The translations under genes and the position numbers were made by a program. This document shows, piece by piece, positions 7,630 through 31,282 of a stretch of 32,832 nucleotides of DNA. The stretch covers positions 1-32,832 of the forward strand of contig JAFRFY010000167.1 in NCBI GenBank assembly GCA_017434085.1. The letters are read 5' to 3'. Position 1 is the first letter of the stretch. Each line of letters starts with the position of its first letter. Origin of the DNA: Clostridia bacterium. Its GTDB lineage: Bacteria > Bacillota > Clostridia > Christensenellales > Aristaeellaceae. Under the pieces are notes generated by a model. It was not told the origin of the DNA. It saw only the letters and a program-made list of their open reading frames with translations, and searched no databases.

Positions 7630-7647
7630 AACCCGTCAGTCGTCAAA

Positions 7648-8941: not shown

Positions 8942-8969
8942 CCTTTGATTATGCGTTACGAACACGGGT

Positions 8970-9031: not shown

Positions 9032-9091
9032 ATATAAGTAAGCTATTATCGGCAATACGAGGACCGTCATGCCATGAAGGGGGCGTGTGCC

Positions 9092-10363: not shown

Positions 10364-10374
10364 ATTCATACATG

Positions 10375-10406
10375 ATAAAACAGCGGCCGCGCGGCCGCTG
10401 TTTTAT
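10375..10406. terminator. Bidirectional terminator between cyuA-like and degV-like genes
   Basis: A perfect 32-base palindrome, ATAAAACAGCGGCCGC and its reverse complement, lies between two convergent genes. The core is ten or more G:C-rich pairs flanked by A-runs on one side and T-runs on the other, so it works as an intrinsic terminator in both directions. Confidence 0.88.
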
Positions 10407-10412
10407 TGTTTT

Positions 10413-14500: not shown

Positions 14501-17500
14501 AGCTTTCATATTTCCACATCATGGGGCGAGAGACTTCGACCTTTTGTTGTCCATTCTCCTCATACCACCGAAGAACCTCTTCTAGTGTACCATCGTTCAG
14601 GACCACATAGTATTTCTCATTCTTTTCCAGAACGATCATGTATTCCCGTCCATAGAGCAAAGGCTGGCTATTGAAGTTCAACTTCATTCTATCATAATTA
14701 TTTGATCTCTCATGCCAACCCGCAAATCCATTTCCACCGGAACCACCGAATTCATTCAGATAGTATTCGGCTTTTTGATCCCCGAATTCGTAATATCCAC
14801 ATAGCGCATAAGTTCCATCTCCAGTGTCACTAACACCAAACATCTGAGGTACATCACTCAACAGGGCATGAGCATTATCATTACTGTTTCTGTCAAAATA
14901 CAAATACTTCTTTGACCCATTGACAATTGTCGAGATATAATACCTGTTTTCTAAATATGTCCCCTCAAATTGCCAAACAGCAGCATCATTTGAGTTGGTG
15001 CTCTTGCCAAGTTTTTTTACCGTGTCTTGTACAGAAGTTGAAGTCACATAATTATTCCCGTGCTGCATGGTAAAGCGCCTACCCGCCAAATCACTGATTC
15101 CCGTCGGAGAATTGGAGGGAACGGCAACCACACCATAAATCGAGAAGGATTCAGTTTCAAACTTGATGCTTGCATTGTCCTCCTCCCAGGAATTCATCAC
15201 AACCGGGCCATCTTCTTCATAATGGATGACCTTCGTCAAATTGTCTGCCTGTTCGGTCTCGCTTTCCAGGGCAATACTGACGGAGACGATTCCTTCCGGT
15301 TCGATCTTCTCGCCGTTGGACAGAATCTCGATGTCGAAGAAGCGGGCGTCGTTGATGGGATTAAACAGATCGGTATAGAGCACCTCTCCAGCCTTCATCA
15401 TATACCACGTATACAGCCCGGGCTTTTCGCTCTCCAGTATCTCCTCGGCTTTCAACTCCGCGTCCAGCGGGATCTCCGCCTCCGGGCCGAAGGTGAGGGT
15501 GATCTTATAGGTCTGTCCGTCGGCGGCCAGCACCCGCGTGGTGATCTGCGCGTCGGTAACGGCGATGGCGAAGGTGTCGCCGTTGTCCATGTTGATGGTG
15601 AGGGTCTCCGGCGTGGAGAAGGGCTTGAGGCTGAACAGCGCCCAGTCCCCGGCGGCCAGTTCGCGCGCGTCGATCTCTGCGCGCTGCTCGTCGGTCAGCG
15701 CGGCGGAGTACTCCGATTCCACCTCAAGCGCCGCCCTGAGCGCGCCCACGGTGGTGTCTTCTTCTATTTTATGGACCAGCACCAGCCCGGGATCGCTGAA
15801 CGTCACACTCTCGATGGCGGCCATGAAGTCGTCAAGCTCGTTGGCCTCGGTCTCCGGGTCGTCCGCGACCATGTTCAGCAAGCCCAGCAGGTCGCGCAGG
15901 GAGGCGCAATCGCCGCCGGGAATGCTGTAATCGAAGGTCTCGCCGTTGACGGTCCAGTGGAAGTCCACGGTGTACACCACGCCCCACACGGAGAAGCTGG
16001 CGGCGCGGAACACCACGGTCTCGCCGGTCTCGGCGGCCTCCACCACGTCGGGCTGCTCGACGGTATCGTCGGCAAAGTGCACCGCGCAGGGCACGGCGTC
16101 GGCGTTCTCGGCCTCGTCCCGGGCGTCGTTCGCCAGCACGGCCTGCACCGTCACCGGCACGGCGGGCTGAACCTCCGTCTCGCCGTCCATGATCTTGATG
16201 TCGAAGAACCGGGCGCGGGTGACGACCTGGGCCTTATCCAGCGTCTCCTCGGTGCGCTCCAGGTAGCCCTGCGCCGCGTCGCCCTCGATCTCGGACACGC
16301 TCAGCGTCGCCCCCATGGGAATCTGCGCCTCGGGGCCGTAGCTGACGGTGATGTTGTAGGTCTCGCCCTCCGCGGTGATGACCTTCGTCTCGATCTTCTG
16401 GGTGACCACCATGGCATAGATGGAGAAGGCGTCCGCCATGAAGGCCACGCGCTCCTCGGACGCTTCCTCGATGACGGCCTCCGCCGCCACGGGCGCGATC
16501 TCCCCGCCCTCAGCCTCCGCGGCGGCGGGCGCGTCATCCTGCGCCGCGTCGGCGGCGGGAGCTTCGGCCTGCGCTTCGTCAGCGGGGGCTTCGGGCTGCA
16601 CGTCGGCGGCGGGCACTTCGGTCTCCTCGACCACCGCGGCGTTGCCCTCGTCGTCCACGTGGACCACCACGGTCTGCTGATCCTGCTCGATCTCCCTGAC
16701 GCTCATGACCACGGAGATGGGGATCAGCGGCTCGATCTCGTTGCCCTCCGCGTCGCGGAAGGTGATGTCCACGGCGTGCACGCGCTTGACCTCAACGAAA
16801 TCCTCGGTCACGGCGGCGTCGCCGATGTCGCTCAAAACGTTCTCGTCCTCGATGTCGGCAAGCTGCATGGTCGTCCCCTCGGGGAACGCGCCCTCGCCCG
16901 CCTCCACCTTCACGGTGATGTAGTCGGTCGCGCCCTCGAAGGTCTGGGCCGGCATGGCGACCGGGGCCTCGACGGTGAAGTTGATGAACGCGATGGTGTA
17001 CACGCCGCCCACCGTAAGCTCGGTCCGCTCGAAGGCGGCGACGGGCGTGATCAGCCAGTCCTCGCCGGTCTCCTCGACGCTGAGCAGCGTTTCATCATAT
17101 TCTATGGAGAGCGCCAGCGCCGCCTCGGGATCGATCACGGGCTCGGGCGCAGCGACCACCGGCTCCGGCGCGGCCATGGTGACCTCGACCTCCGCCGCGG
17201 CCGCCTCCACCGCTTCGCTCTGGACGTATTCCTCGACGGCGGCCTCGATGTCGGACACCTCGACCGCTTCCCCGGCCTCCGGTTCGGCCATATCCTCGGA
17301 ACCGACCAGGGTCTCTTCCTGTACCGCCTCGACCACGGCGTCCTCAACGGTACCGACTTCGGTCGCTTCTGTGTCCGCCTGAGGCTCGACCGCCTCGGCC
17401 TCGGCTTCCACCGGCTCCGCAGGGGCCGCCTCTTCCTCCGCCTGGGGCGCATCCGCCTCCGCCTCAGCGTCAGCGTCGGCCTGGGGCGCATCCGCCTCCG

Positions 17501-19337
17501 CCGCAGCCTCCGCGTCGGCCTGGGGCTGCTCGGCCACCGGCGCGGTCTGGAATATCGACATCAGCCCGCGCAGGGACAGGGGATAGGTCTGTTCCTCCGA
17601 CAGGTCCACGGTCAGCGTGTGGTCGTCCGCCACGGGGGACGCAGCCTGCCCGTCGGCACCCTCGGCACCCTCGGCCTCGTCCGACCCGGGCGCGCTGCTC
17701 TCGCCGTCGGTGTCGCCGCCAGCTTCGCCGTCGGTGCTTTCGTCCTCGGTGTCCGCGGCATCCTCGGCGTCCTCGCCGTCCTCGGCGTCCTCGGCGTCCT
17801 CGCCCTCGGCGTCCTCGCCGTCCTCGGCGTCCTCGTCAGCCTTTTCCTCGTCGGCCTTTTCTTCGTCGGACTTCTCCTCGTCGGCCTTTTCCTCGTCGGC
17901 CTTATCCTCGTCAGACTTCTCTTCGTCTACCTTTTCTTCGTCAGATTCTTCCTCGTCAGACTTTTCTTCGTCGGCCTTGTCACCCTCGGCCTCGCCGTCC
18001 TCGTCGGCTTCGTCGATCTTGTCACCCTCGGCCTCGCCGTCAGCCTTCGCCGCGACGGCCTCATCCCCGGCTTCTTCACCGGCATCGGTGACCGCCGCGT
18101 CCTCGTCGGCGGGAACATTCTCGTCAGCCGCGTCCTCGTCGGCGGGAACATTCTCGTCAGCCGCGCCCTCATCGGCGGGGGCATTCTCGTCGGCGGGGGC
18201 ATTCTCGTCGGCGGGGGCATTCTCGTCGGCGGGAACATTCTCGTCAGCCGCGTCCTCGTCAGCGGAGACATCCTCGTCGGCGTCCCCGGCCATATCCTCG
18301 GCGTCGTCGCCGATCTCTACATCATTATCCTCCTCGACGGTGCCATCCTCGCTCCCGGCGGCAACCTGCGCGTCGTCCGCCTGCGCGTCGTCGATGTCCT
18401 CGGCGTCGTCCGCGGTATCCTCCTCCGAATCGGTGAGGTCGACCTCGTCTGAAGACCCTTCCGCCGTCCGGTCGCTCTCCGGGGCGGTGAGCGGCACGCC
18501 GTCGGTCAGCACGGCCACCTCGATGCCCTCGTCGAGTATGAACGCCACCTCGGCCTCGTCAAACTCCCGCGCGGCGTAGATCAGCCAGTCCCCGTCCAGC
18601 GCCTCGACGCCGATGCCGCTCACGGTGCCGTCCTCGTTTTCGACGGCGGCGACGTCCTGCACGCGGGCCAGGTCCAGGCCCATCGCGCCGGCGAGCTCGC
18701 TGGCGAGTACAAATTCACGGTTCCTGATGCTGTAGGTCGGGGTGCCGGGCGCTTCCTCCCCGGCGTCCTCCGCGATTTCACCGTCCACGGCGGTATCGTC
18801 GCCCTCGGTAATATCGCCGCCCTCGGCGGTATCGCCGCCCTCCGCGGCATCGCCATCCTCGGCGGTATCGCCATCCTCCGCGGCATCGTCCAGCGTCAGG
18901 CCGTCGAGCTCATCCACCGCCGCGTCCACGGCGCCGGACTGTATCGCGTCGCCCGCGTCTTCCGCGGAGCCTTCCTCCGGGGTCGCGCCGTCTTCCGTCA
19001 AGCCGCTGTCAAGCTCCTGATCGTCCGCCTCGCAAACCTCCGTATCCACGGCCTCCGCGGCCACGGTCCCCTTCGGGCGCTCCTGATAGCAGGCGTCCGT
19101 GTGGGCGTGCGCCTCCAGGCCGCAGACGAGGTTCCCCGCCTCGTCGAAGCACTCCGCGCCGTGCTCGTGCTCCGCAATGCCGCAGCTGGGTATGCGCTCC
19201 AGCGTGTCCGCGTTCATTTTCAGGGTGTTGATCGTGAGCAGCAGCACGAACACCGAAAACAGGGAAATGAACCTCCGAAGCGCGCGCTTCTGCCTGAATT
19301 TCCGGAACACCTCGTTTAGACGATCATTTCTCTTCAT
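11511..19337 (-). CDS. Giant acidic LPXTG-anchored surface protein with Cys-His motifs and Cna-B/SpaA domains
   Basis: This 2608-residue cell-wall protein has an N-terminal basic stretch and a hydrophobic export segment (FISLFSVFVLLLTI, about 23-36). Two copies of C-x4-H-x-H-x3-C (C52-C63 and C72-C83) follow. A highly acidic low-complexity region runs from about 90 to 730, interrupted by a small ordered segment near 205-300; it has ADENAPADEN and DEEKSDEEK repeats. Three related beta-rich repeats start near 805, 995 and 1277, each with an ARFFDI-like core and ending in a SFSIYGVV-like strand. A long unique region spans about 1400-2190. A Cna-B-like segment near 2190 and a SpaA-type domain near 2450 (TITIKKTDKN ... 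LTEVQAPAGY, with isopeptide Lys and Glu) precede LPATG at 2575, a membrane segment and the tail KRRAD. GTG 19346 is in frame but overlaps the ribosome binding site, so ATG 19337 is chosen. The sortase and binding partner are not in the window. Confidence 0.9.
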   Translation of the reverse strand: MKRNDRLNEVFRKFRQKRALRRFISLFSVFVLLLTINTLKMNADTLERIPSCGIAEHEHGAECFDEAGNLVCGLEAHAHTDACYQERPKGTVAAEAVDTEVCEADDQELDSGLTEDGATPEEGSAEDAGDAIQSGAVDAAVDELDGLTLDDAAEDGDTAEDGDAAEGGDTAEGGDITEGDDTAVDGEIAEDAGEEAPGTPTYSIRNREFVLASELAGAMGLDLARVQDVAAVENEDGTVSGIGVEALDGDWLIYAAREFDEAEVAFILDEGIEVAVLTDGVPLTAPESDRTAEGSSDEVDLTDSEEDTADDAEDIDDAQADDAQVAAGSEDGTVEEDNDVEIGDDAEDMAGDADEDVSADEDAADENVPADENAPADENAPADENAPADEGAADENVPADEDAADENVPADEDAAVTDAGEEAGDEAVAAKADGEAEGDKIDEADEDGEAEGDKADEEKSDEEESDEEKVDEEKSDEDKADEEKADEEKSDEEKADEEKADEDAEDGEDAEGEDAEDAEDGEDAEDAADTEDESTDGEAGGDTDGESSAPGSDEAEGAEGADGQAASPVADDHTLTVDLSEEQTYPLSLRGLMSIFQTAPVAEQPQADAEAAAEADAPQADADAEAEADAPQAEEEAAPAEPVEAEAEAVEPQADTEATEVGTVEDAVVEAVQEETLVGSEDMAEPEAGEAVEVSDIEAAVEEYVQSEAVEAAAAEVEVTMAAPEPVVAAPEPVIDPEAALALSIEYDETLLSVEETGEDWLITPVAAFERTELTVGGVYTIAFINFTVEAPVAMPAQTFEGATDYITVKVEAGEGAFPEGTTMQLADIEDENVLSDIGDAAVTEDFVEVKRVHAVDITFRDAEGNEIEPLIPISVVMSVREIEQDQQTVVVHVDDEGNAAVVEETEVPAADVQPEAPADEAQAEAPAADAAQDDAPAAAEAEGGEIAPVAAEAVIEEASEERVAFMADAFSIYAMVVTQKIETKVITAEGETYNITVSYGPEAQIPMGATLSVSEIEGDAAQGYLERTEETLDKAQVVTRARFFDIKIMDGETEVQPAVPVTVQAVLANDARDEAENADAVPCAVHFADDTVEQPDVVEAAETGETVVFRAASFSVWGVVYTVDFHWTVNGETFDYSIPGGDCASLRDLLGLLNMVADDPETEANELDDFMAAIESVTFSDPGLVLVHKIEEDTTVGALRAALEVESEYSAALTDEQRAEIDARELAAGDWALFSLKPFSTPETLTINMDNGDTFAIAVTDAQITTRVLAADGQTYKITLTFGPEAEIPLDAELKAEEILESEKPGLYTWYMMKAGEVLYTDLFNPINDARFFDIEILSNGEKIEPEGIVSVSIALESETEQADNLTKVIHYEEDGPVVMNSWEEDNASIKFETESFSIYGVVAVPSNSPTGISDLAGRRFTMQHGNNYVTSTSVQDTVKKLGKSTNSNDAAVWQFEGTYLENRYYISTIVNGSKKYLYFDRNSNDNAHALLSDVPQMFGVSDTGDGTYALCGYYEFGDQKAEYYLNEFGGSGGNGFAGWHERSNNYDRMKLNFNSQPLLYGREYMIVLEKNEKYYVVLNDGTLEEVLRWYEENGQQKVEVSRPMMWKYESSGNNYNDVYITHQAFARTTDWASVADTWYYRYLTPSGNTDGTIGINTDKVEKVGQPNQATDAANAALKANSAVQYDASNKTIKSMYNNQYLSVDGNGKNMTAVSSVGEAAKVYFLTMDQFRVEHANDTIRKYNLVNHIDIEINATARLTVPLGNTKVYDASHKEINIDGDRILHLQEKVLVTPQDLKNASIEAYTKNDNGVKNPLDDAYTITGYSGNAPMGITDSQVRVEGRFLVSTYFNAKENSSDQKNNIYSTDGGVDSSYHREQRYNNRVFYDLSTKKEVRFYLTYDDPVSGQTIQLCDARGNALYIDSIVELTGSFDYWDPNNACPVLHEGWNADNDFITDWKERNILYTGTSGMDFTIGSDGSGKLNKPGIQITKYIYDEAGNQIKLLQPTESTFDIYQKNINQSASPDTIRNDYTNVVRNVNVGTFNQQMDDNTLVDTTKPEERNDIYGGYTNTHSVQVDVAKSGTGSDYDYSVTPGMIYIKERADSIQDTITDENGKTWEYQYTVIKTEYIKREANDTTDRYHFTRKMTEKNEYNSVPEVAGYYYKDENNDTSNPNNSDSLDFYVYNVYRPAKTSVVVHKAWEQNGEPYSPEAGTTADIYLGRYKLTPKADYTSADNETKARVMIYQTNYNPKNAVWFENNRDLRPGDTLDITFGHQYHEVVRYSINGVSEQPFPVYDDDNKPSDWVYDTIIVTIPSDGKLIIALDDEWGGVAGKITVKRGNDVIASIDDGDVPDSPYENPDMVYTIEKDANDKPLEFGPVKLPSANTWTGSVENLDPYDENGNQYRYFILREECNKEGTLLVVGKAENGEVLTSDGMEDDPPLTATNQVPATTITIKKTDKNSQPLPGAVFRLSMNKNGSWVTIKDNITVAVPEEGTDATASVPNLFDGRYKLTEVQAPAGYIILNQEIYFNIQNGNISLRKENGATADGEAYNNMVAVGDGTMFTVQNEPGVSLPATGGMGTGVVYLAGGLLTLLALALLITKRRAD
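17840..18260 (-). repeat. In-frame tandem DNA repeats in the acidic region of the surface protein
   Basis: The unit GCATTCTCGTCGGCGGGG (18 bases) occurs at 18181, 18199 and, with one change at its end, 18217. It is flanked by longer blocks that alternate CGTCAGCCGCGTCCTCGTC with CGGCGGGAACATTCT. A second set, 15 bases long (variants of TCCTCGTCGGCCTTT), fills about 17840-17970. Both periods are multiples of three, so copy-number change would lengthen or shorten the protein without frameshift. Confidence 0.85.
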
Positions 19338-19538
19338 CGCAATCACCTTTCAACCACCGGTCGGGTACAGTGGAAATATATGACAAATTCCCCGAGTCAA
19401 GCCACAACCCGAGGGTTTTTACCTATTGCAACGTGCGGGGCGTCGATCCGCCCGCGCTTACCGATTCAATGAGATTTGTGTGTGTCCAGCGTTTCGAATA
19501 CGTTTTCGTAAGGTCAGATACCTATATCTCTACATATC
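19338..19538 (-). promoter_or_regulatory. Long untranslated leader of the giant surface protein gene
   Basis: About 195 bases separate the predicted transcription start near 19532 from the ATG. AAAGGTG is seven bases before the start codon. CCCGAG occurs twice as a direct repeat at 19391 and 19408. I looked for a c-di-GMP riboswitch (GEMM) core and did not find a convincing one. The length alone suggests post-transcriptional control. Confidence 0.4.
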
Positions 19539-19840: not shown

Positions 19841-21397
19841 TCACGCGGTCTCCTGGTGATTCCGACGTCGGTCGGTTCCGGGGGCGCTGTAATAGCGGCT
19901 CTTGGCGCGGTACATCATCTGGTCCGCCCGGATCTCCAGGCCGTGGATATCGGCGTCGGGATGGTCCCTGCGGGCGGCGTAGCCGACGGATAACGACAGC
20001 GCCTCCCCATACGCCCCGCGCCAGGCGGCGGACCGGCTCCTGATTTCCTCCAGCACCGCCGACGGGGCGTCGGTCATCGCGGTGGCCAGGAACTCGTCCC
20101 CGCCGGTGCGGTAGACCTTTCCGATGGGCCCGATGACCGTCGTGAGGCATTCTGCCGTGGCCATGAGCAGCTCGTCCCCGGCCACGTGGCCCCGGGTGTC
20201 GTTGGCCTCCTTCAAGCCGTTGACGTCCACGGAGAAGAGCACGAAGTCCTCCCCCATGCCCTCTTTCCGAAGCGCCGCCATGTCCGTGTCATAGCCGCGC
20301 CGGTTGGCGAGGCCCGTGAGCTCGTCGGTCATGGAGATGCGGATCAGCTGTTCCTCCCTGCGCTTCTGCCGGTCGATGTTCTGTATGGTATAGATGATGC
20401 GCGCGGGGGCGCCGTCCGGCCGCCGCTCGACCACGATATACTGCGCCCGGAACCAGCCCGTCTCGGCGCTTAAAAACTCCCTGTCCATGCTCTGTACGTC
20501 GTGCATCCGTGTGAGCGCGCCGGACAGGTCGGCGAAATCCGCGAAGGCCTGCCGGCTCTCCGCGGCGATCGAGGGCATCAGCTTCGCGTTCATGCGGGAC
20601 TGGCCGCCGCTGATCGTCCCGGAGGCGTGCCGGTCCGCCGCCCGGGTGTCGCGTATGGCGGTCTCCGTCATGGCGTCGAGGTCGATCAGGCTGGCGTACT
20701 CGTAGATCTCCGACATGGATTCCAGTATGGCCATCTGCGCGTTCATCTGGCGCTTGTTGTCGCTGAGTATGCGGTACTTCTCGATCAGCTCCCGGTAGTA
20801 GGAGGTGGACAGTCGGCACAGGCAGTACCCCGCCACCACCATGATCGCAGTCTCGATGGTAAAGCCGCCCATCCGCCCCGCGAAGTACTGAAACGGCCGG
20901 TCGAAATCCACCCGCAGGCTCGCGTAGTAGGGCGACACGAGCCACACCGACAAGGTCATCATGGCGTAGTTGATCGCCACGGCGATGGCGTAGACCTTGA
21001 AGTCGCAAAACAGCAGGCTGATGAGGGGCACCACGAACCAGGTGATGTAGATGCCGATGTGGGCGCTGTTCATCAGTACCAGCAGCGTGTCGATGGCCAG
21101 AAACGCGATGACCGCCGCGCGCACGGTGTTGCCCTCCCGCATGGTCAGCACGTAGTGGATGCACGAGAGCGACAGCACCAGCAGGGACACGATGACGCAC
21201 GACGCATAGGTGACGCTGTGGAATATGCCGAAGCGTATGGCCAGCATCAGAAGCGGGCCGATCAGTATGGAGAACCTGAGGAACTTGTTGAGCATCAGGT
21301 TGATCTTCTTCTGGTTCTCCTTCAGAAAGGCTTCGTAATCCGTGATCCCGGACTGGAATATCGTCTTTTCATCCCGGCGCTTGACGGCTCTGCTCAC
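19841..21397 (-). CDS. Membrane-bound GGDEF diguanylate cyclase
   Basis: This 518-residue protein has about six N-terminal membrane segments (residues about 35-210), a linker with a divergent PAS-like sensor (about 270-345) and a C-terminal GGDEF domain. The active-site loop is intact, TGGDEF at 431-436, and the metal and substrate motifs FSVDVNGLKEANDTRGH and AGDELL are present, so it should make c-di-GMP from GTP. The RxxD inhibitory site expected just before the loop is absent (GPIGKVYR). The start is GTG 21397, with GGGGGGAG about ten bases upstream; no better ATG is in frame. It follows the permease-kinase gene by 45 bases and is probably cotranscribed with it. Confidence 0.9.
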   Translation of the reverse strand: MSRAVKRRDEKTIFQSGITDYEAFLKENQKKINLMLNKFLRFSILIGPLLMLAIRFGIFHSVTYASCVIVSLLVLSLSCIHYVLTMREGNTVRAAVIAFLAIDTLLVLMNSAHIGIYITWFVVPLISLLFCDFKVYAIAVAINYAMMTLSVWLVSPYYASLRVDFDRPFQYFAGRMGGFTIETAIMVVAGYCLCRLSTSYYRELIEKYRILSDNKRQMNAQMAILESMSEIYEYASLIDLDAMTETAIRDTRAADRHASGTISGGQSRMNAKLMPSIAAESRQAFADFADLSGALTRMHDVQSMDREFLSAETGWFRAQYIVVERRPDGAPARIIYTIQNIDRQKRREEQLIRISMTDELTGLANRRGYDTDMAALRKEGMGEDFVLFSVDVNGLKEANDTRGHVAGDELLMATAECLTTVIGPIGKVYRTGGDEFLATAMTDAPSAVLEEIRSRSAAWRGAYGEALSLSVGYAARRDHPDADIHGLEIRADQMMYRAKSRYYSAPGTDRRRNHQETA

Positions 21398-21442: not shown

Positions 21443-24400
21443 TTAACCGGCGTTCTCCGCCGCGTAGATCAGCTCTCCCAGCGCCTTGTAGAGGTTGTTG
21501 GGCTCGATGGGCTTGGTGAGGTGGGCGTTCATGCCCGCCTGGAGCGACCGCTGCACGTCCTCGTCGAAGGCGTTGGCGGTCAGGGCGATGATCGGTATGC
21601 GCCTGGCGTCCGGCCGGTCGAGGGCGCGGATGGCGGCGGCGGCCTCCAGGCCGTCCATCTCCGGCATGCGCACGTCCATCAGTATCGCCGCGTAGGTCCC
21701 GACGGCGCTGTTCTCAAACATCTCCACGGCGATCTTGCCGTTCTCGGCGTGGTCGGCCTCGATGCCCTCCATCTCGAGGATGTCCAGCATGATCTCAGCG
21801 TTGATCTCCATGTCCTCCGCCAGCAGTATGCGCCGCCCGGTCAGGTCCGCCCGCTGCTTTTCCTTGAGCAGGCTCATGTTGTTGCGCCGGGCGATGCGCT
21901 CGAACTCCTCGATGACGTTCGCGGCGAACAGCGGCTTGGTGAGGAAGCTGTCCACGCCCACGCGGTGCGCCTCCTCCTGGATGTCATCCCAGTTGTAGGC
22001 CGTCAGCACCACCACGGTGGTCTCGCTGTCGTACTGCTTGCGGATCTCGGCGGAGGCCTCCAGGCCGTTCATGCCCGGCATGTTCCAGTCCATCAGCACC
22101 AGGTTGTAGGGCCTGTGCTTGGTGTGCTGCACCTCCATCATGCGCAGCGCCTCCTCGCCGCTGGAGGCGACGTCGGCGCGTATGCCCACCTCGTCCAGTA
22201 CCATGCGGGCGTGCTCGGCGGCGATGGTGTCGTCGTCCACCACCAGCACGTACAGGGCCTGGGGGTCGATGGCGCTCTCCTTCTGCGCGCCCTTCTGGTC
22301 GCAGTTTCTCAGGGTGACCGTCACGGCGAACTCGGTGCCCGCGCCCTTCTCGGACTCCACGGCGATGGAGCCGTTCATCATCTCCACGATGCGCTTGGTG
22401 ATGGCCATGCCCAGGCCGGTACTACCGTACTTGGTCTTGTGGCTTCCGTCCTCCTGGGAGAAGGCGTCGAATATCTTCGGTATGAAGGCCCTGTCCATGC
22501 CGATGCCGGTGTCCCTGATGCGGAAGCACAGCGTGGACTGGTCCTCAAAGGCCACCGTGCGCTCCACCGTCAGCGTGACGCTGCCCGGCGCCTCAGTGAA
22601 CTTGACGGCGTTGGACAGTATGTTGATGAGCACTTCCTTGAGCTTCATGTCGTCGCCGATGTAGCTGTCATCGACGTGGTTGATCATGCGGCAGTCGTAG
22701 GTCAGCCCCTTGTCGCGGCACTGGGCCAGCACCATGGTGTTGATCTGCTCCAGCATGCCGCTCAGCGAGAACACCTCCCGGCGCAGCACCAGGCGGCCGG
22801 ATTCAATGCGGCTCATGTCCAGTATGTCGTTGATGAGCTCCAGCAGGTGCCGCGCGCTGCCGCCGATCATCTGCAGGTAGTCCTGGGTGCGTTCGTTGAG
22901 GCTCTCATCCCGCAGGGCGAGGGTGCCCAGCCCGATGATGGCGTTCAAGGGCGTGCGGATCTCGTGGCTCATGCTGGAGAGGAAGGAGGTCTTGGCCTTG
23001 TTGGCCTCCTCGGCGGAGGTCAGCGCCTCGGCCAGGGCCTCGCTCTTGGCCATAGCCTCGCGCATCTCGGCGTCCACGTTGGTGACGCCCACGATGATGA
23101 AGTGCTCGTCGTCCTCCATGCGGGAGACCTTCATACTGACGTAGGTGGGGCCGTTTTCCCCCGTCTGCCGGTAGGTCATCATGAAGGTGTCCTTGCGGTC
23201 CAGGGCATTCATCAGCGTGCGGCGCTCCATGGCGTTTAAGAAGGCCTCCCGGTCGTCGGGCCAGACGCCCTGGGATAGCTCCGCCTTGCAGTCGCTGAAG
23301 AAGTGCCAGCCGCGCCGCATCTCGGACAGGGCGCTGCTCGCGTCGCCCCGGCGGTACTCTATGAACTCCTCCGTGTCGAGGTTGACGTAGAACATGTCGG
23401 TGTAATCCCGGGCCAGCGTCTGGGCGATGTGGGTGTACATGATGCCGGAGCTTCGGGCGTTCTCATACGCCTCCTTGGTCATGGCGTTTTCGTGCTGTAT
23501 GCGCACCATGTCCGTCACGTCCTGGCACATGCCCAGCAGGCACACGCGCCCGGTGGAATCGATGAATTTCAGCTTCGTCGTCTGGAACTGCCGCTGGTTG
23601 CCCGCGGCGTCCGGCACGTCCTCAAAGAATATGTAGGGCTCGTCCATGGACAGGGCGATACGGTCGTCCTGCACGAAGTGGGCGGCGGTCTCGGCGTCGA
23701 AGATCTGGGCGTCGGTGAGCCCGGCCACGCCCTCCGGGGTATCCTTGTGGCAGTAGTTGGCGAAGGCCTGGTTGCACGCCAGGTACACGCCGGTCCGGGC
23801 GTTCTTGGTAAAGGTCAGGCCGGGGATGTTGTCCAGCAGCGCGCTGATGGATTCCTTCAGCTCCGCGATCTTCTTCGCGGCGATGGCCTCGTTCTCCGCC
23901 TCGGTCAGCCGCTCCCCCAGCTTCTGCGTATCCCGGTAGTTGTTCACCAGCATGGTGACGACCAGCAAAAACAGCCCCAGCGACACGGCGGTGTAGAGCG
24001 TGTTGGTGCTGCTGATGGCCTTCGCCTGCTCGTGCAGGTAGCTCACGCGCTCCTCCCCGCCCCCGGCGTCCACATCGTGGTCCGGATGGCTCTGGTGATA
24101 CTGGTAGATGCGCTCCACGGCGTCGTTCGCCGCGTTCTCCGTCTCCCGGGAGACCCACATCATGGAAGCGAACAGCACCAGCACCAGCAGCAGTATCCAC
24201 ACGATCACGCTCTGCCCGTAGCCCAGGTGGTTCTCCGTGCGCATCAGTATCCGGTAGTACACCAGCCCCAGCACCGCCCAGGCGATGAACAGTATGTAGG
24301 ATTCCGTCTCCATGGCGTGGAAGGGCAGAAGCCCCGGGATCAGCAGAAGCAGCATGAAGCACACCATCAGAATCAGGCCGAGTACGCCGGTCACCTGCTC

Positions 24401-25663
24401 CGCCCGGGCGTTTTCACTCCGGGCGTGCCGGTACACCGCGTGGGAGATCAGCCCGTAGATGATGGTCGCGCCCAGGGTGGTGGCGTCCACGATCCAGCCG
24501 ATGGCCGTCCTGCCCAGGAAGGGTATGCACATCGACACCGCCACCACGGTGATCACCGCGGCCCCCGGCACGCCGCGCCGGTTGAGGCCCGCCAGCCCCC
24601 GGGGGGCCTCGCCCTCGCGGCCCGCCGCGTACAGCAGGCGGGAGAGCGCCAGCATGTTGCCGATGAGGCTGGTCAGTATCACGCCGAACAGCGACAGCAT
24701 CAGCACCGTCACGCCCGCCTGCCCCAGGTAGTGATGGGCGGCGTAGAACGCCGGCACCGCCTTGATGCCCTCCAGGTTGCCCATGTCGCGGATGTACATA
24801 AGCCAGCTTTCATACTCCGGCGGATAGGCGGACACGGACAGCAGCGACACGAACAGGTATAAAAGCGTGGTGACCAGCACGGAGGCGATCAGTATGCCCC
24901 GCACCTTCTTCACCGGGAAGCTGTATTCCTCCGAGAAGTGGGAGATGTTCTCAAAGCCTATGAACGCCCAGGGGGAGATGGCGGCGATGCGCACGATCTG
25001 CGCGAACGCGCCGGAGCCCTCGGTGTACAGCGGAGCGTAGCTGAACGCGCCGTCGTGCCTTAAAAGGGCGACCACGGCGCACACCGTGAAGCCCGCCGCG
25101 AAGGTCAGCGCCGCGACGATCATGATGCGGTTGGGCAGGCGGGCGCTGTTTAAACACAGTATGCCGATGAGCACCGCCGCGCCCATGGACAGCAGCGCCT
25201 CGCCCAGCCACACCTCATAGCCGAATATGCGGTAACGGAAGCCGAATCGGAAGGCGTTTCCGAGGAAGAACCGCGCGAACAGCGGCAGCGAGGTCATGTT
25301 GGCCCACAGTATGGCCAGATAGGTCAAAAGCACGAACCAGAAGGCCAAAAAGCCCAGGTCCTTGCCGCCGACCTTCTTTTCAAAGGTGTAGATGCCGCCC
25401 GCGCCGGGCGCTTTTTGGATCATGTATTGCAGGTTCCAGGTGATCACGAGTATGACCGCCATGCCCAGCAGCATGCCGAACACCGTGCCGAGCACGCCGG
25501 ATTTCTGCAAATAGGTGTTGCAGGTGACGATGAACGACCCCCAGCCGATGCTCGTGCCGATGGAGAACGCCCACATGCCCAGCGGCGTGAAGCCGGACCG
25601 CAGTCCGCCGGCCCGGCGCCCGCCTGTCGCCCCTGTGGAAATGCCGTTATTGCTGTGTTCCAT
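21443..25663 (-). CDS. APC amino-acid permease fused to a PAS hybrid histidine kinase with two receiver domains
   Basis: This 1406-residue protein combines a transporter and a sensor kinase. Residues about 20-460 form an APC-superfamily permease with some 12 membrane segments and the TM1 loop IGTSIGWGSF. A further membrane pair encloses a short extracytoplasmic loop (about 485-580). A PAS-like domain (607-725) and a second sensor module (about 740-870) follow. HisKA carries H900 (SHEIRTPLN). HATPase_c has N1018 (NILSNAVKF) and DTGIGM at 1051-1056. REC1 has D1192 (LVLMDW) and REC2 has D1330 (AILMDV). All phosphorelay residues are intact. ATG 25663 is used because GGAAAGG lies just before it; the longer frame to 25759 runs through an intergenic repeat. 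It may sense its own substrate, as the SSS-type permease-kinase CbrA does, and pass the signal to the flanking cyclases; this is inference. Confidence 0.93.
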   Translation of the reverse strand: MEHSNNGISTGATGGRRAGGLRSGFTPLGMWAFSIGTSIGWGSFIVTCNTYLQKSGVLGTVFGMLLGMAVILVITWNLQYMIQKAPGAGGIYTFEKKVGGKDLGFLAFWFVLLTYLAILWANMTSLPLFARFFLGNAFRFGFRYRIFGYEVWLGEALLSMGAAVLIGILCLNSARLPNRIMIVAALTFAAGFTVCAVVALLRHDGAFSYAPLYTEGSGAFAQIVRIAAISPWAFIGFENISHFSEEYSFPVKKVRGILIASVLVTTLLYLFVSLLSVSAYPPEYESWLMYIRDMGNLEGIKAVPAFYAAHHYLGQAGVTVLMLSLFGVILTSLIGNMLALSRLLYAAGREGEAPRGLAGLNRRGVPGAAVITVVAVSMCIPFLGRTAIGWIVDATTLGATIIYGLISHAVYRHARSENARAEQVTGVLGLILMVCFMLLLLIPGLLPFHAMETESYILFIAWAVLGLVYYRILMRTENHLGYGQSVIVWILLLVLVLFASMMWVSRETENAANDAVERIYQYHQSHPDHDVDAGGGEERVSYLHEQAKAISSTNTLYTAVSLGLFLLVVTMLVNNYRDTQKLGERLTEAENEAIAAKKIAELKESISALLDNIPGLTFTKNARTGVYLACNQAFANYCHKDTPEGVAGLTDAQIFDAETAAHFVQDDRIALSMDEPYIFFEDVPDAAGNQRQFQTTKLKFIDSTGRVCLLGMCQDVTDMVRIQHENAMTKEAYENARSSGIMYTHIAQTLARDYTDMFYVNLDTEEFIEYRRGDASSALSEMRRGWHFFSDCKAELSQGVWPDDREAFLNAMERRTLMNALDRKDTFMMTYRQTGENGPTYVSMKVSRMEDDEHFIIVGVTNVDAEMREAMAKSEALAEALTSAEEANKAKTSFLSSMSHEIRTPLNAIIGLGTLALRDESLNERTQDYLQMIGGSARHLLELINDILDMSRIESGRLVLRREVFSLSGMLEQINTMVLAQCRDKGLTYDCRMINHVDDSYIGDDMKLKEVLINILSNAVKFTEAPGSVTLTVERTVAFEDQSTLCFRIRDTGIGMDRAFIPKIFDAFSQEDGSHKTKYGSTGLGMAITKRIVEMMNGSIAVESEKGAGTEFAVTVTLRNCDQKGAQKESAIDPQALYVLVVDDDTIAAEHARMVLDEVGIRADVASSGEEALRMMEVQHTKHRPYNLVLMDWNMPGMNGLEASAEIRKQYDSETTVVVLTAYNWDDIQEEAHRVGVDSFLTKPLFAANVIEEFERIARRNNMSLLKEKQRADLTGRRILLAEDMEINAEIMLDILEMEGIEADHAENGKIAVEMFENSAVGTYAAILMDVRMPEMDGLEAAAAIRALDRPDARRIPIIALTANAFDEDVQRSLQAGMNAHLTKPIEPNNLYKALGELIYAAENAG

Positions 25664-25776
25664 GCGCTGCCTTTCCTTCCTGCCTGATATCAACCTCTCG
25701 CCTTGAGAGGGTGGAGGGTGGAGTTTTGATGCGCGACTAACGACATCTCCACTCTTCACTCTCCACTCTTCACTCT
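25664..25776. repeat. Intergenic repeat with a perfect 14-bp tandem duplication
   Basis: CCACTCTTCACTCT occurs twice in a row at 25749-25776, covering the stop codon of the upstream GGDEF gene. About 40 bases further on, GAGAGGGTGGAGGGTGGAG (25705-25723) is partly complementary to it, so the transcript can fold back on itself. A small CTCTC/GAGAG stem flanks it. Translated, the segment gives HPPPSQGER, a string I associate with spurious frames in dispersed clostridial repeats. It separates the two signalling genes and may attenuate transcription. Confidence 0.5.
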
Positions 25777-27797
25777 CGTCCCGTCTTGAGCCTGTTCTTG
25801 TCCTCGTACATATTCTGATCCGCCCGCTCGAACACCGCGGCGACGCTCGGGTCGTCCGCGCGCTTCGCCATGCCGCAGGCGATGACGATGCCCCCGCCCC
25901 GCTGGGCCTCGGCGTTATACGCGCGCACCCGGTCGATCAGCGCGTCGATGCACGCATAGTCGTTGCCCTGGGCGATGACCGCGAACTCGTCGCCGCCCAC
26001 GCGGAACACGGGGCTGCGCTTGAAGGTCTCGCAGATGATCCTGCAGGCGTCGCGGATGTACTGGTCCCCGGCCTTGTGCCCCTCGGTATCGTTGACCTTC
26101 TTTAGGTCGTTGACGTCCAGTATCACGACGGCGAACTCCGGCGCGCGCTGCGCTTCGATCTGGGCGTTCAGCCGCGCCTCGGCCTCCTGGAAGGCGAGCT
26201 TGTTCTTCACGCCGGTCAGCGCGTCCACCTTGGCCTCGATGCGCGCCTTGGCCAGGCGCTCGACATACGCCTCCTCCTGCCGGACCTGGGCGTCGATGTC
26301 GTTGATGCCGACGATCAGCCGCGCGCCCTCCTTCTCCTCCACCATGGCCGCCTTGAGCTGCACGTAGCGGGGCTCGCCGTCCATCATCAGGCGATAGCTC
26401 ACCGTGAAGATGCCGTAGCGCGCGATCTCCGCCATGACTTTCTCCCGGGTGAACGCCGAGAGGAAGCGGTTCAGGTCGTCCGGGTGGTTATAGGCGCGGG
26501 CGGCCTCCCGCACCTTTTCAAAGAAGTCCTGCCCCTCCTTGGCCTGGGCGAAGGACTGGTAGCTCTGGGTCGCGCTGAACTCCCGGTAGCGGCCCGTCTC
26601 CGGGGCCACCACGTAGATGCAGAGGAAGTCGCCGGTGAGCGCGCTCAGCCGGGCGTAGGCGATCTGCTCCTCCTTCATCCGCTCGGTCGCGCGGCGCTGC
26701 TTCATCAGCTCGTCCACGTCCGACACGCCCAGCACGATGTAGCGCTCGTCGTCCTGCATGCGGCAGATGCGCGAGCTCACGTAGACCGGCCCGTCCTCCG
26801 AGATCAGCCGGTAGGTCATCACGAAGGTCCTGTTGCGGTCCAGCGCCGCCACGAGGGTCTTGCGGTCCAGCGCCGATATCACCATCGCCCGGTCGTCGGG
26901 ATGCACGACCTGCTCGGCCTCCAGGCGGCACGTCTCGAAGAAGTGCCAGCCGCGCCGGGCCTCGGTCAGCGTGCCGGTGTCGTCGTCGGTGCGGTATTCC
27001 GTGTATTCCTCGGTGTCCAGGTTGATGTAATACAGTTCCGAATACCCCCGGGCCAGCGCCTGGGCGATGTGGGTGTAGATGATGCCCGCGCCGCGCTCCT
27101 TCGCGTAGGCCTCCTTCGACGTCGCGCTCTCCCGGCGGATGCGCACCAGGTCCGTCACGTCCTGGCTCATGCCCAGCACGCACAGCCGGCCGGCGAAGTT
27201 GTGGTATTTCAGCTTGGTGGTCTGGAACTGCCGCCGGTTGCCGACGGTGTCGTGCACGTCCTCAAAGAATATGTAGGGCTCGTCCATGGACAGGGCCATC
27301 CTGTCGTCCTCCACCACCCGCGCCGCCGTCTCCTGGTCGAAGATCTGCGCGTCGGTGAGCCCCGCCACCTCCGCCGGGCGCGCCTTTTGGGCGTAATTCG
27401 CAAAGGCCTGGTTGCACGCCAGGTACGCGCCCGTCTCGGCGTCCTTGGTGTAGGTCATGGCGGGCATGTTGTCCAGAAGGGAGACGATGGTGTCCTTCAG
27501 CGCGGAGATCCGGGCGGCCTCCTCCAGCCCGCGGCGGTACTCCTCCTTTTCGTCGATGACCACGAAGGTGTGCATCACGCACGTCCCCAGCAGGTACGCG
27601 ACGCTGTAGAGCGGCAGGTACGGCCACCACAGCTGTATGAACAGGAAAAGCGCCATGATCAGACCGTACAACGCCAGCGCCAGGTACTTGTTGCCCTTGC
27701 CCTTCGCGCCCAGCTGCCGCGTAAACGACATAAACGCGAACACCGACAAAAGCAGGAGCATCAGTATCGCCAGCAGGCCTATCGCGGAGTAATACAT
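25770..27797 (-). CDS. Membrane PAS-GGDEF diguanylate cyclase, paralogous sensor region to the permease-kinase
   Basis: This 675-residue protein has three N-terminal membrane segments (about 5-80), two sensor modules (about 110-230 and 245-375) that closely match the PAS region of the neighbouring permease-kinase, a third PAS-like module (about 390-500) and a GGDEF domain (about 515-675). The catalytic loop RVGGDEF (601-605 for GGDEF) and VILDVNDLKKVNDTEGH are intact, so c-di-GMP synthesis is expected. The RxxD inhibitory site is missing (FKRSPVFR). The upstream sequence GGAAAGAG serves as ribosome binding site for ATG 27797. It is the first gene of the three-gene signalling cluster and is divergent from the ABC operon at 28049. 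Confidence 0.92.
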   Translation of the reverse strand: MYYSAIGLLAILMLLLLSVFAFMSFTRQLGAKGKGNKYLALALYGLIMALFLFIQLWWPYLPLYSVAYLLGTCVMHTFVVIDEKEEYRRGLEEAARISALKDTIVSLLDNMPAMTYTKDAETGAYLACNQAFANYAQKARPAEVAGLTDAQIFDQETAARVVEDDRMALSMDEPYIFFEDVHDTVGNRRQFQTTKLKYHNFAGRLCVLGMSQDVTDLVRIRRESATSKEAYAKERGAGIIYTHIAQALARGYSELYYINLDTEEYTEYRTDDDTGTLTEARRGWHFFETCRLEAEQVVHPDDRAMVISALDRKTLVAALDRNRTFVMTYRLISEDGPVYVSSRICRMQDDERYIVLGVSDVDELMKQRRATERMKEEQIAYARLSALTGDFLCIYVVAPETGRYREFSATQSYQSFAQAKEGQDFFEKVREAARAYNHPDDLNRFLSAFTREKVMAEIARYGIFTVSYRLMMDGEPRYVQLKAAMVEEKEGARLIVGINDIDAQVRQEEAYVERLAKARIEAKVDALTGVKNKLAFQEAEARLNAQIEAQRAPEFAVVILDVNDLKKVNDTEGHKAGDQYIRDACRIICETFKRSPVFRVGGDEFAVIAQGNDYACIDALIDRVRAYNAEAQRGGGIVIACGMAKRADDPSVAAVFERADQNMYEDKNRLKTGRE

Positions 27798-27978: not shown

Positions 27979-28007
27979 TTGACAAGCCGCCATGTAAATA
28001 TTATAAT
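27979..28007 (+). promoter_or_regulatory. Promoter of the second ABC transporter operon
   Basis: TTGACA (27979-27984) and TATAAT (28002-28007) are separated by 17 bases, a full consensus match. A start near 28014 gives a 35-base leader with AGGAGGT at 28034-28040. Confidence 0.9.
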
Positions 28008-28048: not shown

Positions 28049-29122
28049 ATGAAGAAGCTGCTTGCACTGCTGCTGGCCGCGCTGATGCTGCTGGCTTGCG
28101 CGTCCGCCCTGGCGGAGGTCGACCCCGAGCTGGTGGAGGCCGCCCAGGACGAGGGCGAGCTGGTGGTCTACGGTTCCTGTGAGGAGCCCTATCTGATCGC
28201 CGCGTGCCAGAAATTTGAAGAGCTTTACGACATCAAGGTGGACTATCAGCGCCTGTCCACCGGCGAGGTGCAGACCAAGATCACCGAGGAGAAGGGCAAT
28301 CCCTCCGCCGACGTGTGGTTCGGCGGCACCAACGATCCCTACAACGAGGCCGCCAAGGAGGGCCTGCTGATGGCCTACGAGCCGACCAACGCCGTGCACC
28401 TCCTGAAGCCCGCCTACCGCGATCCGGACGGCTACTGGTTCGGCATCTATCAGGGCATACTGGGCTTCATGGTCAACCAGGAGGAGCTCGACCGCCTGGG
28501 CGTCGAGGCCCCCAAGACCTGGGACGACCTGTTAAAGCCCGAGTACCAGGGCCTCATTTGGCTTTCCAACCCCAACACCGCCGGCACCGCCAAGCTGGTC
28601 ATCAACACCATGGTGCAGATGAAGGGCCACGACGAGGGCATACAGTACCTTGTGGACCTGGACAAGAACATCGCCCAGTACACCAAGTCCGGCTCCGGCC
28701 CCTCCAAGAACGTGGGCACCGGCGAGTGCATCATCGGCATCGGCTTCCTGCATGACGGCGTGTACCAGATCCTGCAGGGCTACGACAACATCGGCCTGAT
28801 CATCCCCGAGGACGGCACCAGCTACGAGATCGGCTCCACCGCCATCTTCGAGGGCTGCGAGCATCCCAACGCCGCCAAGCTGTGGATCGAGTTCGCGCTG
28901 TCCCCCGACTGCGTGGAGCTTGCAGACGACGCGGGCTCCTACCAGTTCCTGGTGATCGACGACGCCGAACAGCCCGCCGCGCTGCAGGCCTTCCCGGAGC
29001 TCGATCCCTCCAAGACCATCGACTATGACTTCGCCGACGCCAAGGAGAACACCTCCAAGTACGTCGCCGATTACTTCGACGCCCTGGGCGCCGCGGCCGA
29101 CGACCGCTTCAAGACCGAATAA
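28049..29122 (+). CDS. ABC transporter substrate-binding protein, AfuA/FbpA-like (COG1840)
   Basis: This 357-residue exported protein has signal peptide MKKLLALLLAALMLLACASALA. Cleavage could be at ALA-E by signal peptidase I, or at LLA-C as a lipoprotein; the lipobox is imperfect. The mature chain begins LVEAAQDEGELVVYGS and contains FEELYDIKVDYQRLSTGE and PSADVWFGG, typical of the iron(III)/phosphonate class of binding proteins. The paired tyrosines used by FbpA to bind iron are not apparent; that region reads SGSGPSKNVGTGE. The substrate may therefore be an organic or phosphorylated anion and not ferric iron. It leads a three-gene operon under a consensus promoter. Confidence 0.85.
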   Translation: MKKLLALLLAALMLLACASALAEVDPELVEAAQDEGELVVYGSCEEPYLIAACQKFEELYDIKVDYQRLSTGEVQTKITEEKGNPSADVWFGGTNDPYNEAAKEGLLMAYEPTNAVHLLKPAYRDPDGYWFGIYQGILGFMVNQEELDRLGVEAPKTWDDLLKPEYQGLIWLSNPNTAGTAKLVINTMVQMKGHDEGIQYLVDLDKNIAQYTKSGSGPSKNVGTGECIIGIGFLHDGVYQILQGYDNIGLIIPEDGTSYEIGSTAIFEGCEHPNAAKLWIEFALSPDCVELADDAGSYQFLVIDDAEQPAALQAFPELDPSKTIDYDFADAKENTSKYVADYFDALGAAADDRFKTE

Positions 29123-29143
29123 GCGGGCTGCGTCATTCTGATG

Positions 29144-29167
29144 GGGAGACGGGTTTTCCTGTCTCCC
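29144..29167 (+). terminator. Intercistronic hairpin between binding protein and permease genes
   Basis: GGGAGAC (29144-29150) pairs with GTCTCCC (29161-29167) around a GGG/CCT inner stem and a TTTT loop, followed by TTCGTTTGGTT. The T-tract is interrupted, so partial termination or mRNA stabilisation is likely, favouring the binding protein. Confidence 0.6.
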
Positions 29168-29196
29168 TTCGTTTGGTTCTATGGAGGTGATCACTT

Positions 29197-31281
29197 GTGG
29201 CTGCCCGCCAGAGCGCAAGATTAGAGAGAAAGAAATTCTTCGGCGACCCGGTGATGGTCGTCACCATCGCGGTGCTGATCGCGCTGCTTCTGCTGTTCAT
29301 CGTGTATCCTCTGGCGATACTGCTGGTGGACAGCGTGCTGGTGCGCCAGACGGAGCTGTGTTCGGCGGAGGCGCTGGCCTCGGGCGAGCCGGCCTTCTGC
29401 ACGCGGGATGGCGGCGCGCCCGCCGAGCGCGACGACATCTACGTCAGGCTGCCCCTGGTGTCGGAGGAGGGCGGCGAAAAGCTGGCGCCGCTGTACTCCC
29501 GCATCAGCCTGTTCCCCCGGCAGGCCAAGCTGGAGGACGCCGACGGCCCGCTGTACTTAAAGGTGGTCAACACCACCGACCGCACGGCCTGGCTGGACAT
29601 CCGCAAGCTCATGGAGGTCGCGGAGACCCCCATGACCTACAAGCCCAACGGCCGCCTGATCAAGAAGGCGGAGGGGCTTAAGCCCGCGGACGTCTGCGTG
29701 CAGCTTCGCAAAAACAACTGGTCGCTCGACGCTTTCCCCCGCATCTTTAAGGACTACACCTTCAACCGCGCCCTGCGCAACACGCTGCTGCTGGGCCTGC
29801 TGACCGGCTTCGGCTCGCTGGTGATCGGCCTGCTGTTCGCCTACGTGGACGTGTACGTGCACATCCGCAGCCGCTTCATCAAGAAGCTGTTCGACGTGGT
29901 GTCCATGCTGCCCGTGGTGTCGCCGCCGTTCGTGCTGTCGCTGTCGATGGTGCTGCTGTTCGGCAAGTCCGGCCTCATCACCCGGAAGATTTTAGGCATC
30001 TACGACGCCAACGTCTACGGCATGTGGGGCATCGTGATCGTGCAGACGCTGACCTTCTTCCCGGTGGTCTACCTGATGCTCAAGGGCCTTTTGAAGAACA
30101 TCGACCCCTCCATGGAGGAGGCCGCCCGGGACATGGGCGCGACGCGCCTCAAGGTGTTCACCACGGTCACGCTGCCGCTGATGCTGCCGGGCCTGGGCAA
30201 CGCCTTCCTGGTGACGTTCATAGAGTCCGTGGCGGACTTCGCCAACCCGATGATCATCGGTGGCTCCTTCGACACGCTGGCCACCACCATCTACCTGCGC
30301 ATCACCGGCGGCACGTATGACATCACCGGCGCGGCGGCCATGGCTGTGGTGCTTTTGTGCATCACGCTCATACTGTTCATGGTGCAGAAGTACGTGCTGG
30401 AGGCCAAGACCGCCGCCACGCTGACCGGCAAGGCCAGCCGCGTGCGCATGCTGATCGAGGACAACAGCGTGCGCTACCCGCTGTCGGCGCTGTGCATGCT
30501 GATGAGCGTGTTCGTGGTGCTGATGTACATCGCGGTGCCCTTCGGCGCGCTGTTCAAGCTGTGGGGCCGCGACTACTCCCTGACCTTCAAGTGGTTTGCG
30601 AAGATGTTCTCCGAGGGCGGCTGGAAGGCCTTCAAGGACAGCTTCATACTCTCCATCATCGCCTCGCCCATCACGGCGCTTCTGTCCATGATCATCTCCT
30701 ACCTGGTGGTCAAGCGCAAGTTCCGTGGCAAGGGCTTCATCGAGTTTACCTCCATGCTGGCCATGGCGGTGCCCGGCACGGTGCTGGGCGTGGGCTTCAT
30801 ACGCGGCTTCGCGGGCGGCGTGTTCCGCACGGGCTTTTTGCAGGGCATCTACGGCACGGGGCTGATACTGATCATCGTGTTCGTGGTGCGCTCGCTGCCG
30901 GTGGGCACGCGAAGCGGCATCTCGGCGCTAAGGCAGATCGACAAGTCCATCGAGGAATCCGCCTACGACCTGGGCGCGGGCTCGGGCAAGGTGTTCACCT
31001 CGGTGACGCTGCCGCTTATCAAGGACAGCTTCTTCTCCGGCCTGGTGACCACCTTCGTTCGGTCCATCACGGCCATCTCCGCGGTGATTTTGCTGGTGAC
31101 GCCCCGCTACCTGCTCATCACCTGCCGCATCAACGAATACGCCGAGAAGGGCGAATTCGGCGTGGCCTGCGCCTACGCCACCATACTGATCATGATCACC
31201 TACGCGGCCATCATGATCATGAACCTGGTCATCGACCGCTTCGGCACCAGCCGGAAGATCAACGGAAAGGAGGGCGCCTGA
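29197..31281 (+). CDS. ABC transporter double permease, FbpB/AfuB-like, with extracytoplasmic insertion
   Basis: This 694-residue membrane protein joins two permease halves. Each half has an EAA coupling loop: EEAARDMGATRLKVFTTVTLPL and EESAYDLGAGSGKVFTSVTLPL. Relatives are usually around 500-560 residues. The excess here is a hydrophilic region of about 140 residues (46-188) between the first membrane segment and the first permease domain, containing C55 and C68 and predicted to lie outside the membrane. It could help capture solute or contact the binding protein. Translation begins at GTG 29197, with GGAGGTGAT seven bases upstream. The ATPase gene follows after one base. Confidence 0.88.
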   Translation: MAARQSARLERKKFFGDPVMVVTIAVLIALLLLFIVYPLAILLVDSVLVRQTELCSAEALASGEPAFCTRDGGAPAERDDIYVRLPLVSEEGGEKLAPLYSRISLFPRQAKLEDADGPLYLKVVNTTDRTAWLDIRKLMEVAETPMTYKPNGRLIKKAEGLKPADVCVQLRKNNWSLDAFPRIFKDYTFNRALRNTLLLGLLTGFGSLVIGLLFAYVDVYVHIRSRFIKKLFDVVSMLPVVSPPFVLSLSMVLLFGKSGLITRKILGIYDANVYGMWGIVIVQTLTFFPVVYLMLKGLLKNIDPSMEEAARDMGATRLKVFTTVTLPLMLPGLGNAFLVTFIESVADFANPMIIGGSFDTLATTIYLRITGGTYDITGAAAMAVVLLCITLILFMVQKYVLEAKTAATLTGKASRVRMLIEDNSVRYPLSALCMLMSVFVVLMYIAVPFGALFKLWGRDYSLTFKWFAKMFSEGGWKAFKDSFILSIIASPITALLSMIISYLVVKRKFRGKGFIEFTSMLAMAVPGTVLGVGFIRGFAGGVFRTGFLQGIYGTGLILIIVFVVRSLPVGTRSGISALRQIDKSIEESAYDLGAGSGKVFTSVTLPLIKDSFFSGLVTTFVRSITAISAVILLVTPRYLLITCRINEYAEKGEFGVACAYATILIMITYAAIMIMNLVIDRFGTSRKINGKEGA

Positions 31282-31282
31282 T

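Follow-up and report, generated by a model that had tools for sequence, protein, structure and literature searches.

What does a permease for amino acids do at the N-terminus of a histidine kinase? The question is raised by a 32,832-nucleotide stretch of DNA, hereafter the window, which is positions 1 to 32,832 of contig JAFRFY010000167.1 of a Clostridia bacterium of the family Aristaeellaceae (assembly GCA_017434085.1). On its minus strand, at 21443-25663, it encodes a protein of 1406 amino acids (aa), P0001, in which a permease core of the APC type, two PAS modules, HisKA, HATPase_c and two receiver (REC) domains follow one another in a single frame. The answer that we consider best, with a probability of about 0.68, is that the permease half derives from a transporter and acts as a membrane receptor for an amino-acid-like ligand, feeding a phosphorelay, the output of which is probably cyclic di-GMP (c-di-GMP).

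The minus-strand frame is open over 21443-25759 from a GTG codon, and an alternative ATG lies at 25663; the ATG is the more likely start and is preceded by 'aggaaagg', a plausible ribosome site. In the numbering of the 1438-aa frame that starts at GTG, Pfam places AA_permease_2 (PF13520) at 62-479 (E = 3e-20; 72.8 bits against a curated cut-off of 27, with model positions 6-407 of 427 covered), PAS_4 at 642-751, HisKA at 922-988, HATPase_c at 1035-1150 and two Response_reg stretches at the C-terminal end (158 bits), and each of the six Pfam families found exceeds its own cut-off. Counted from the ATG, the APC core spans aa 25-478 (24230-25591, minus strand, like all parts of the fusion), delimited by Pfam, alignment to the transporter GkApcT and conserved columns. 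Hydropathy analysis yields 16 segments, or 14 once overlaps are merged: 12 in the permease and two extra transmembrane (TM) segments, TM13 (aa 486-504) and TM14 (aa 555-573), which with the loop between them form an added hairpin (23930-24229) that relatives share. A probably helical connector (23852-23929) leads from TM14 to the first PAS module (aa 610-719; 23507-23836), the only one that passes Pfam; the second PAS-like module (aa 730-870; 23054-23476) has no Pfam match of its own and was recognized through homology with relatives, to which it is common. The kinase part consists of HisKA (22796-22996; H900 codon 22964-22966) and HATPase_c (22310-22657; N1018, D1051 and G1083 present), and is followed by the first receiver (21869-22252; D1192 codon 22088-22090) and the second (21479-21829; D1330 codon 21674-21676). 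Ten phosphorelay residues (the HisKA His, N- and G-box residues, and the acidic residues, Asp and Lys of the receivers) are identical in P0001 and 23 aligned relatives of the same architecture. The single-frame fusion and the intact H900, D1192 and D1330 reported in a preliminary description of this locus are confirmed by these analyses of frame, domains and alignment. That description had also named an assembly join of two genes as the objection to be faced; the fusion is not such a join, because 22 further distinct open reading frames (ORFs) in the fetched loci have the identical domain order (L113, one of the 22, has its permease broken over two frames, and a few others reach a contig end).

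The fusion is not an isolated oddity, as it belongs to a family in which one permease core is joined to several outputs. The fetched loci, which were chosen by similarity to the window protein and whose architecture counts are not frequencies, contain 113 distinct ORFs with this permease, fragments included; the ORFs were called by script from stop to stop, and their lengths include codons ahead of the start. The permease is followed by PAS-PAS-HK-REC-REC (HK, histidine kinase) in 22 ORFs, HK-REC-REC in 17, HK-REC in 15, GGDEF-REC-EAL, with or without a trailing PAS-like match, in 19, PAS-PAS-PAS-GGDEF in eight and GGDEF in eight, while the remaining 24 comprise 16 permeases alone, several of them fragments, and eight fragments or odd cases. 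Besides these six architectures, a single protein joins the APC core to HD_5, which we take to be the type of HD-GYP phosphodiesterases. Pfam analysis of ten representatives agrees with these assignments, except for L087 (permease only) and L071 (HisKA without HATPase_c). One of the HK-REC fusions comes from a sequenced isolate, Lachnospiraceae bacterium AC2029 (L128). The occurrence of one core on such different signaling enzymes suggests that a transporter fold has been reused as a nutrient sensor. The host genome itself encodes a second fusion, C65, of the APC-HK-REC-REC type, and an unfused 14-TM relative, C83. The titles of the best 80 named loci for the window protein are mostly of uncultured Clostridiales, Lachnospiraceae and similar bacteria, with many from ruminant-gut series, including the label RUG, presumably rumen genomes.

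The permease was matched in 33 of 100 relatives, and at E 1e-40 its profile is matched by 54 of 250 genomes of the taxonomic family. In 43 of the 250, the host included, the open frame that holds the match is 700 aa or longer (the outputs were not checked for each), and the description of the fusion as unusual does not hold for its own lineage. In the class, subfamily members whose long frames include an output domain were found in four genomes besides the host among 291 searched, and in the phylum three genomes besides the host, of 398 searched, have matches at E 1e-40. Two of these three, from another family (L226:393-6601 and L227:3504-9519), have APC-HATPase_c genes in tandem, in which HisKA is matched weakly or not at all; a CheB-methylesterase gene adjoins them. 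The APC-Usp proteins L199 and L200 were rejected as members for their weak matches and different motif. In Eubacterium ruminantium ATCC 17233, all that is present of the APC core is an N-terminal stretch of 155 aa (L149:2791-3258), which looks like a remnant and stands just upstream of an SBP_bac_3-PAS-GGDEF gene.

All 48 fused and three unfused 14-TM rows form one clade with a Shimodaira-Hasegawa-like approximate likelihood ratio test (SH-aLRT) value of 100, outside of which are 21 ordinary 12-TM relatives; GkApcT was included as a distant root, and the trees come from quick IQ-TREE runs in which SH-aLRT was the only measure of support. Another tree, of 113 rows, requires 19 label changes over 10 groups, the minimum possible being nine. 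The hairpin accompanies the fusions throughout: all 85 distinct fused ORFs whose core is near-complete have at least two hydrophobic segments after it, two such segments are found in four of seven unfused ORFs and fewer in the other three, and the profile match of the ordinary relatives stops at model position 400-466 of 575, ahead of the hairpin. Three APC proteins within the fused clade (L037, L066 and L067) have the extra hairpin without an output domain and may act as partners of fused proteins or descend from them; a PDB search with the L037 protein gave no matches.

The permease half is closest to the SLC7/CAT-type APC transporters among solved structures: by single sequence the best matches are 6f34 and 5oqt (E = 7e-7 and 1.6e-6), CAT1 and CAT4 are also found by profile, and all 28 sequence-profile matches are to named transporters. 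The ligand site described for GkApcT (PMC5803215) can be traced in the fused proteins, which retain the TM1 G-x-G motif, the TM6 GF-acid motif and the TM8 Arg; in P0001 these are GWG at aa 40-42, PWAFIGFE at aa 231-238 and N336 with R342. From the alignment of fused groups to GkApcT, permease matches shorter than 380 residues, repeats and L113 4276-5550 were omitted, and rows at least 75% identical to a kept row were dropped for the analysis of pocket entropy, the comparison with ordinary relatives and the clade tree. Of eleven ligand-site columns chosen, one was gapped and dropped; the other ten have a mean entropy of 0.54 bits in 39 fused representatives, compared with 1.53 bits for the TM columns, and only one of 10000 random column sets is as low. 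The permease is also under purifying selection like the kinase, with ratios of nonsynonymous to synonymous substitution rates (dN/dS) against seven orthologues of 0.08-0.28 and 0.05-0.32, respectively.

What is special to the fused pocket is its residue differences from ordinary relatives, of which 26 rows, 24 of them distinct, were compared. Glu replaces Asp at the position of GkApcT residue 237 (Glu in 38 of 39 fused representatives, Asp in 23 of 26 ordinary rows), position 321 has Asn in 30 of 39 where all 26 ordinary rows have Phe, Trp occupies position 231 in 39 of 39 compared with nine of 26, and the fused proteins, unlike ordinary relatives, have Ala at position 232. Relative to GkApcT itself, the window core carries Trp in place of Thr43, Glu in place of Asp237 and Asn in place of Met321, and it lacks both K191 (TM5) and E115 (TM3); in the fused groups displayed, position 191 is Phe, Leu or Ile and position 115 is mostly Thr or Ser. 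The Trp of GWG was rejected as a receptor-specific residue, being present in 21 of 26 ordinary rows.

The window kinase gene is located between two GGDEF genes on the same strand, and the three may form one operon. Upstream is a gene for a 675-aa protein with a short membrane N-terminus, PAS and GGDEF (25770-27797, minus strand), a pairing that recurs in relatives, and downstream is one for a 518-aa membrane GGDEF protein (19841-21397, minus strand), the domains of both being assigned by Pfam. A terminator-like match at 19809-19794 follows the downstream gene, such matches being no rarer in shuffled sequence. Among 17 loci of the sister type APC-HK-REC-REC, an HPt gene is directly upstream of the fusion in 15, while the fusions of the other two start less than 140 bases from the edge of the fetched DNA, and a REC-EAL gene is found within the locus in 12 (the single one tested by Pfam is REC-GGDEF-EAL). 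These loci hold the parts for a phosphorelay that ends in c-di-GMP turnover. Beside the window kinase itself no HPt gene was found; three HPt matches are found inside large frames elsewhere in its genome.

Based on these observations, we propose that an amino acid or amino-acid-like solute may bind in the APC pocket, between the stretches of TM1 and TM6 that are unwound, and thereby change the state of the permease bundle. This change would pass through TM13-TM14 and the connector, and in the window subtype also through the two PAS modules, to the kinase, where it would set the autophosphorylation of H900. The phosphate could then be passed to the receivers and, by way of an HPt protein, on to response regulators; in this lineage the pathway would most likely end in c-di-GMP turnover. 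The idea that the transporter may act as the sensor had been put forward in the preliminary description, and the sequences speak for it, as the ligand site is both kept and altered and one core serves many outputs. Its further suggestion that transport and signaling could be inseparable is conjectural.

Several observations weigh against this proposal. The ligand columns of ordinary relatives (n = 21) are also low in entropy (0.99 compared with 1.76 bits, with 19 of 10000 random sets as low), a tendency that is partly general to APC proteins; the low entropy of the fused proteins therefore shows that their site is kept, but not that it is special. Loss of K191 and E115 was rejected as a mark of lost transport, both residues being absent from ordinary relatives too. 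The same PAS-HK body occurs without a permease. A phmmer query with the HPt protein of the C65 locus matched none in 34 PAS-HK-type loci (25 distinct ORFs), in which a divergent HPt could be missed, and PilZ has no matches in the host genome, a 2.6-Mb draft of 188 contigs that is 76% complete.

The most probable alternative is a true transceptor, in which the permease still transports its substrate and its transport or occupancy is what the kinase senses, as has been proposed for CbrA; it is a sub-case of the sensor reading, with which its probability overlaps, and we regard it as possible, with the odds somewhat against it. The kept GWG, TM6 GFE and TM8 Arg motifs fit continued transport, and CbrA is reported to transport histidine as well as to perform phosphotransfer (PMC7918813, PMC13022988). 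Against this stand the differences of the pocket from that of ordinary relatives, the TM6 acid included; replacement of this acid by Ala is described as abolishing GkApcT function (PMC5803215), although the change from Asp to Glu seen here is mild, and transport is described as lost or undetectable in the repurposed transporters Ks-Amt5 and Ssy1.

Two further alternatives turn on what else may precede the kinase. For 43 partner GGDEF genes, those reaching a contig end on the 5' side having been left out, 19 are beside APC-PAS-HK genes (six with a long and 13 with a short N-terminus) and 24 beside PAS-HK genes without permease (23 long and one short); the sensor parts therefore vary independently between both partners. 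The long forms contained SBP_bac_3 in all six tested. SBP_bac_3 is a binding-protein family best known for amino acids. The PAS modules could be the real sensors, with the permease only delivering their solute locally; this has been suggested for CbrA without its SSS domain, which still functions as a kinase according to PMC7918813. The occurrence of the same PAS modules without permease agrees with such an arrangement, but the HK-REC-REC, HK-REC, GGDEF and GGDEF-REC-EAL members share the permease and have no PAS match between hairpin and output, and we consider it unlikely. A permease that has lost ligand binding and merely tethers the PAS-kinase to the membrane would fit the 24 pairs in which the body bears another N-terminus, mostly of about 245 aa and hydrophobic where read (the long N-termini of PAS-HK and short GGDEF genes were called membrane regions by eye). 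Such an anchor is improbable, given that purifying selection on the permease is as strong as on the kinase and that the ligand-site columns are nearly invariant across proteins with unrelated outputs. Control in the reverse direction, of uptake by the kinase and receivers, is allowed solely by their presence on one polypeptide with the permease and is highly improbable, as this core also occurs attached to cyclase and phosphodiesterase domains, and 34 of the 35 distinct GGDEF fusions retain an intact GGDEF motif.

A receptor of the kind favored here would work much like several known systems. CbrA, CrbS and RpuS, described as SLC5(SSS)-STAC histidine kinases (PMC13022988, PMC7918813, PMC9100948, PMC5715377), likewise combine a transporter-like N-terminus, PAS and histidine kinase in one protein and act in nutrient control. 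They belong to the SSS family and have a STAC linker, whereas the window fusion belongs to the APC family, has no SSF/SLC5 match among its six Pfam families and no STAC match in Pfam or in the best 25 of 159 NCBIfam rows (the presence of a STAC model there was not checked); the contrast with CbrA-type fusions drawn earlier is upheld. Unlike the CbrA type as described, the window family has two additional TM helices ahead of its output and includes cyclase and phosphodiesterase outputs besides kinases; SSS proteins with other signaling domains are mentioned in a review (PMC7918813). In the ammonium sensor histidine kinase Ks-Amt5, too, an uptake transporter has been recruited as a sensor and joined directly to a kinase, but there an Amt fold is joined to a DHp-CA kinase, termed a prototype (PMC5764959), while the APC fold serves several outputs. 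Receptors of the 5TMR type similarly combine one transporter-related fold with HK, REC, PAS, GGDEF and EAL; theirs is an ECF S-component fold of five TM helices, linked by structure comparison (PMC11109136), whereas a full APC transporter is evident here from sequence. The yeast amino-acid sensor Ssy1 is of the APC type and evolved from an amino-acid transporter, but it is eukaryotic and signals via the separate Ptr3 and Ssy5 (PMC12958826), while the window protein is fused to its own output. The absence of an SSF domain and of an Amt fold and the fused output set the window family apart from CbrA, Ks-Amt5 and Ssy1 despite similar working. No description of an APC-kinase or APC-cyclase (GGDEF) fusion was found in the open-licence full-text literature, the search having been confined to it, with subscription journals, bioRxiv and InterPro architectures outside, and for that literature the fusion can still be called unusual. 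As transporter-kinase fusions are already known from CbrA and Ks-Amt5, the breadth of the APC family is the main new point.

More tentatively, and at somewhat less than even odds, the family may go back to one event in which a GWG-type APC amino-acid transporter became a 14-TM receptor module without net transport, which was later swapped onto kinases, diguanylate cyclases, GGDEF-REC-EAL and HD-GYP-type outputs and would now serve phosphorelay and c-di-GMP signaling in gut Bacillota as a general input for sensing nutrients: an APC-fold counterpart of Ssy1 fused to its output. With ligand and gate positions known, and with ordinary 12-TM proteins and 14-TM signaling modules on neighboring branches of one tree, the family puts two questions within direct reach of experiment: how a kinase or cyclase can be driven by a LeuT-fold cycle, and by which changes in the pocket a receptor differs from a carrier. 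It could also show how these gut bacteria tie amino-acid supply to c-di-GMP.

The window contains no Rfam match and no tRNA. In the partner GGDEF protein (25770-27797), the first PAS begins at aa 108, compared with 242-292, counted stop to stop, in short-form relatives, in which the hydrophobic region at the N-terminus reads as longer; the membrane N-terminus of the window partner looks shortened. The spacer ahead of the kinase start (25664-25770, minus strand) has a repeated gagtgaagagtgga stretch, and its self-folding is not significant (z = -1.4; 18 of 200 shuffles as good). Divergent from the signaling genes, ABC importer genes for a binding protein, a permease and an ATPase (28049-32377, plus strand) resemble 2-aminoethylphosphonate systems at scores below the NCBIfam cut-offs, and a 12/12 promoter-like match is found at 27979-28007. 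The region 384-11249 (minus strand) contains branched-chain-amino-acid-type ABC importer genes, Dak1 and Dak2 domains, two URO-D matches and a DegV protein; 8996-10369 gave no Pfam match. Finally, a 2611-aa open frame at 11511-19346 (minus strand), with a single SpaA-type (prealbumin-like) match close to the C-terminal end, perhaps encodes a large surface protein.

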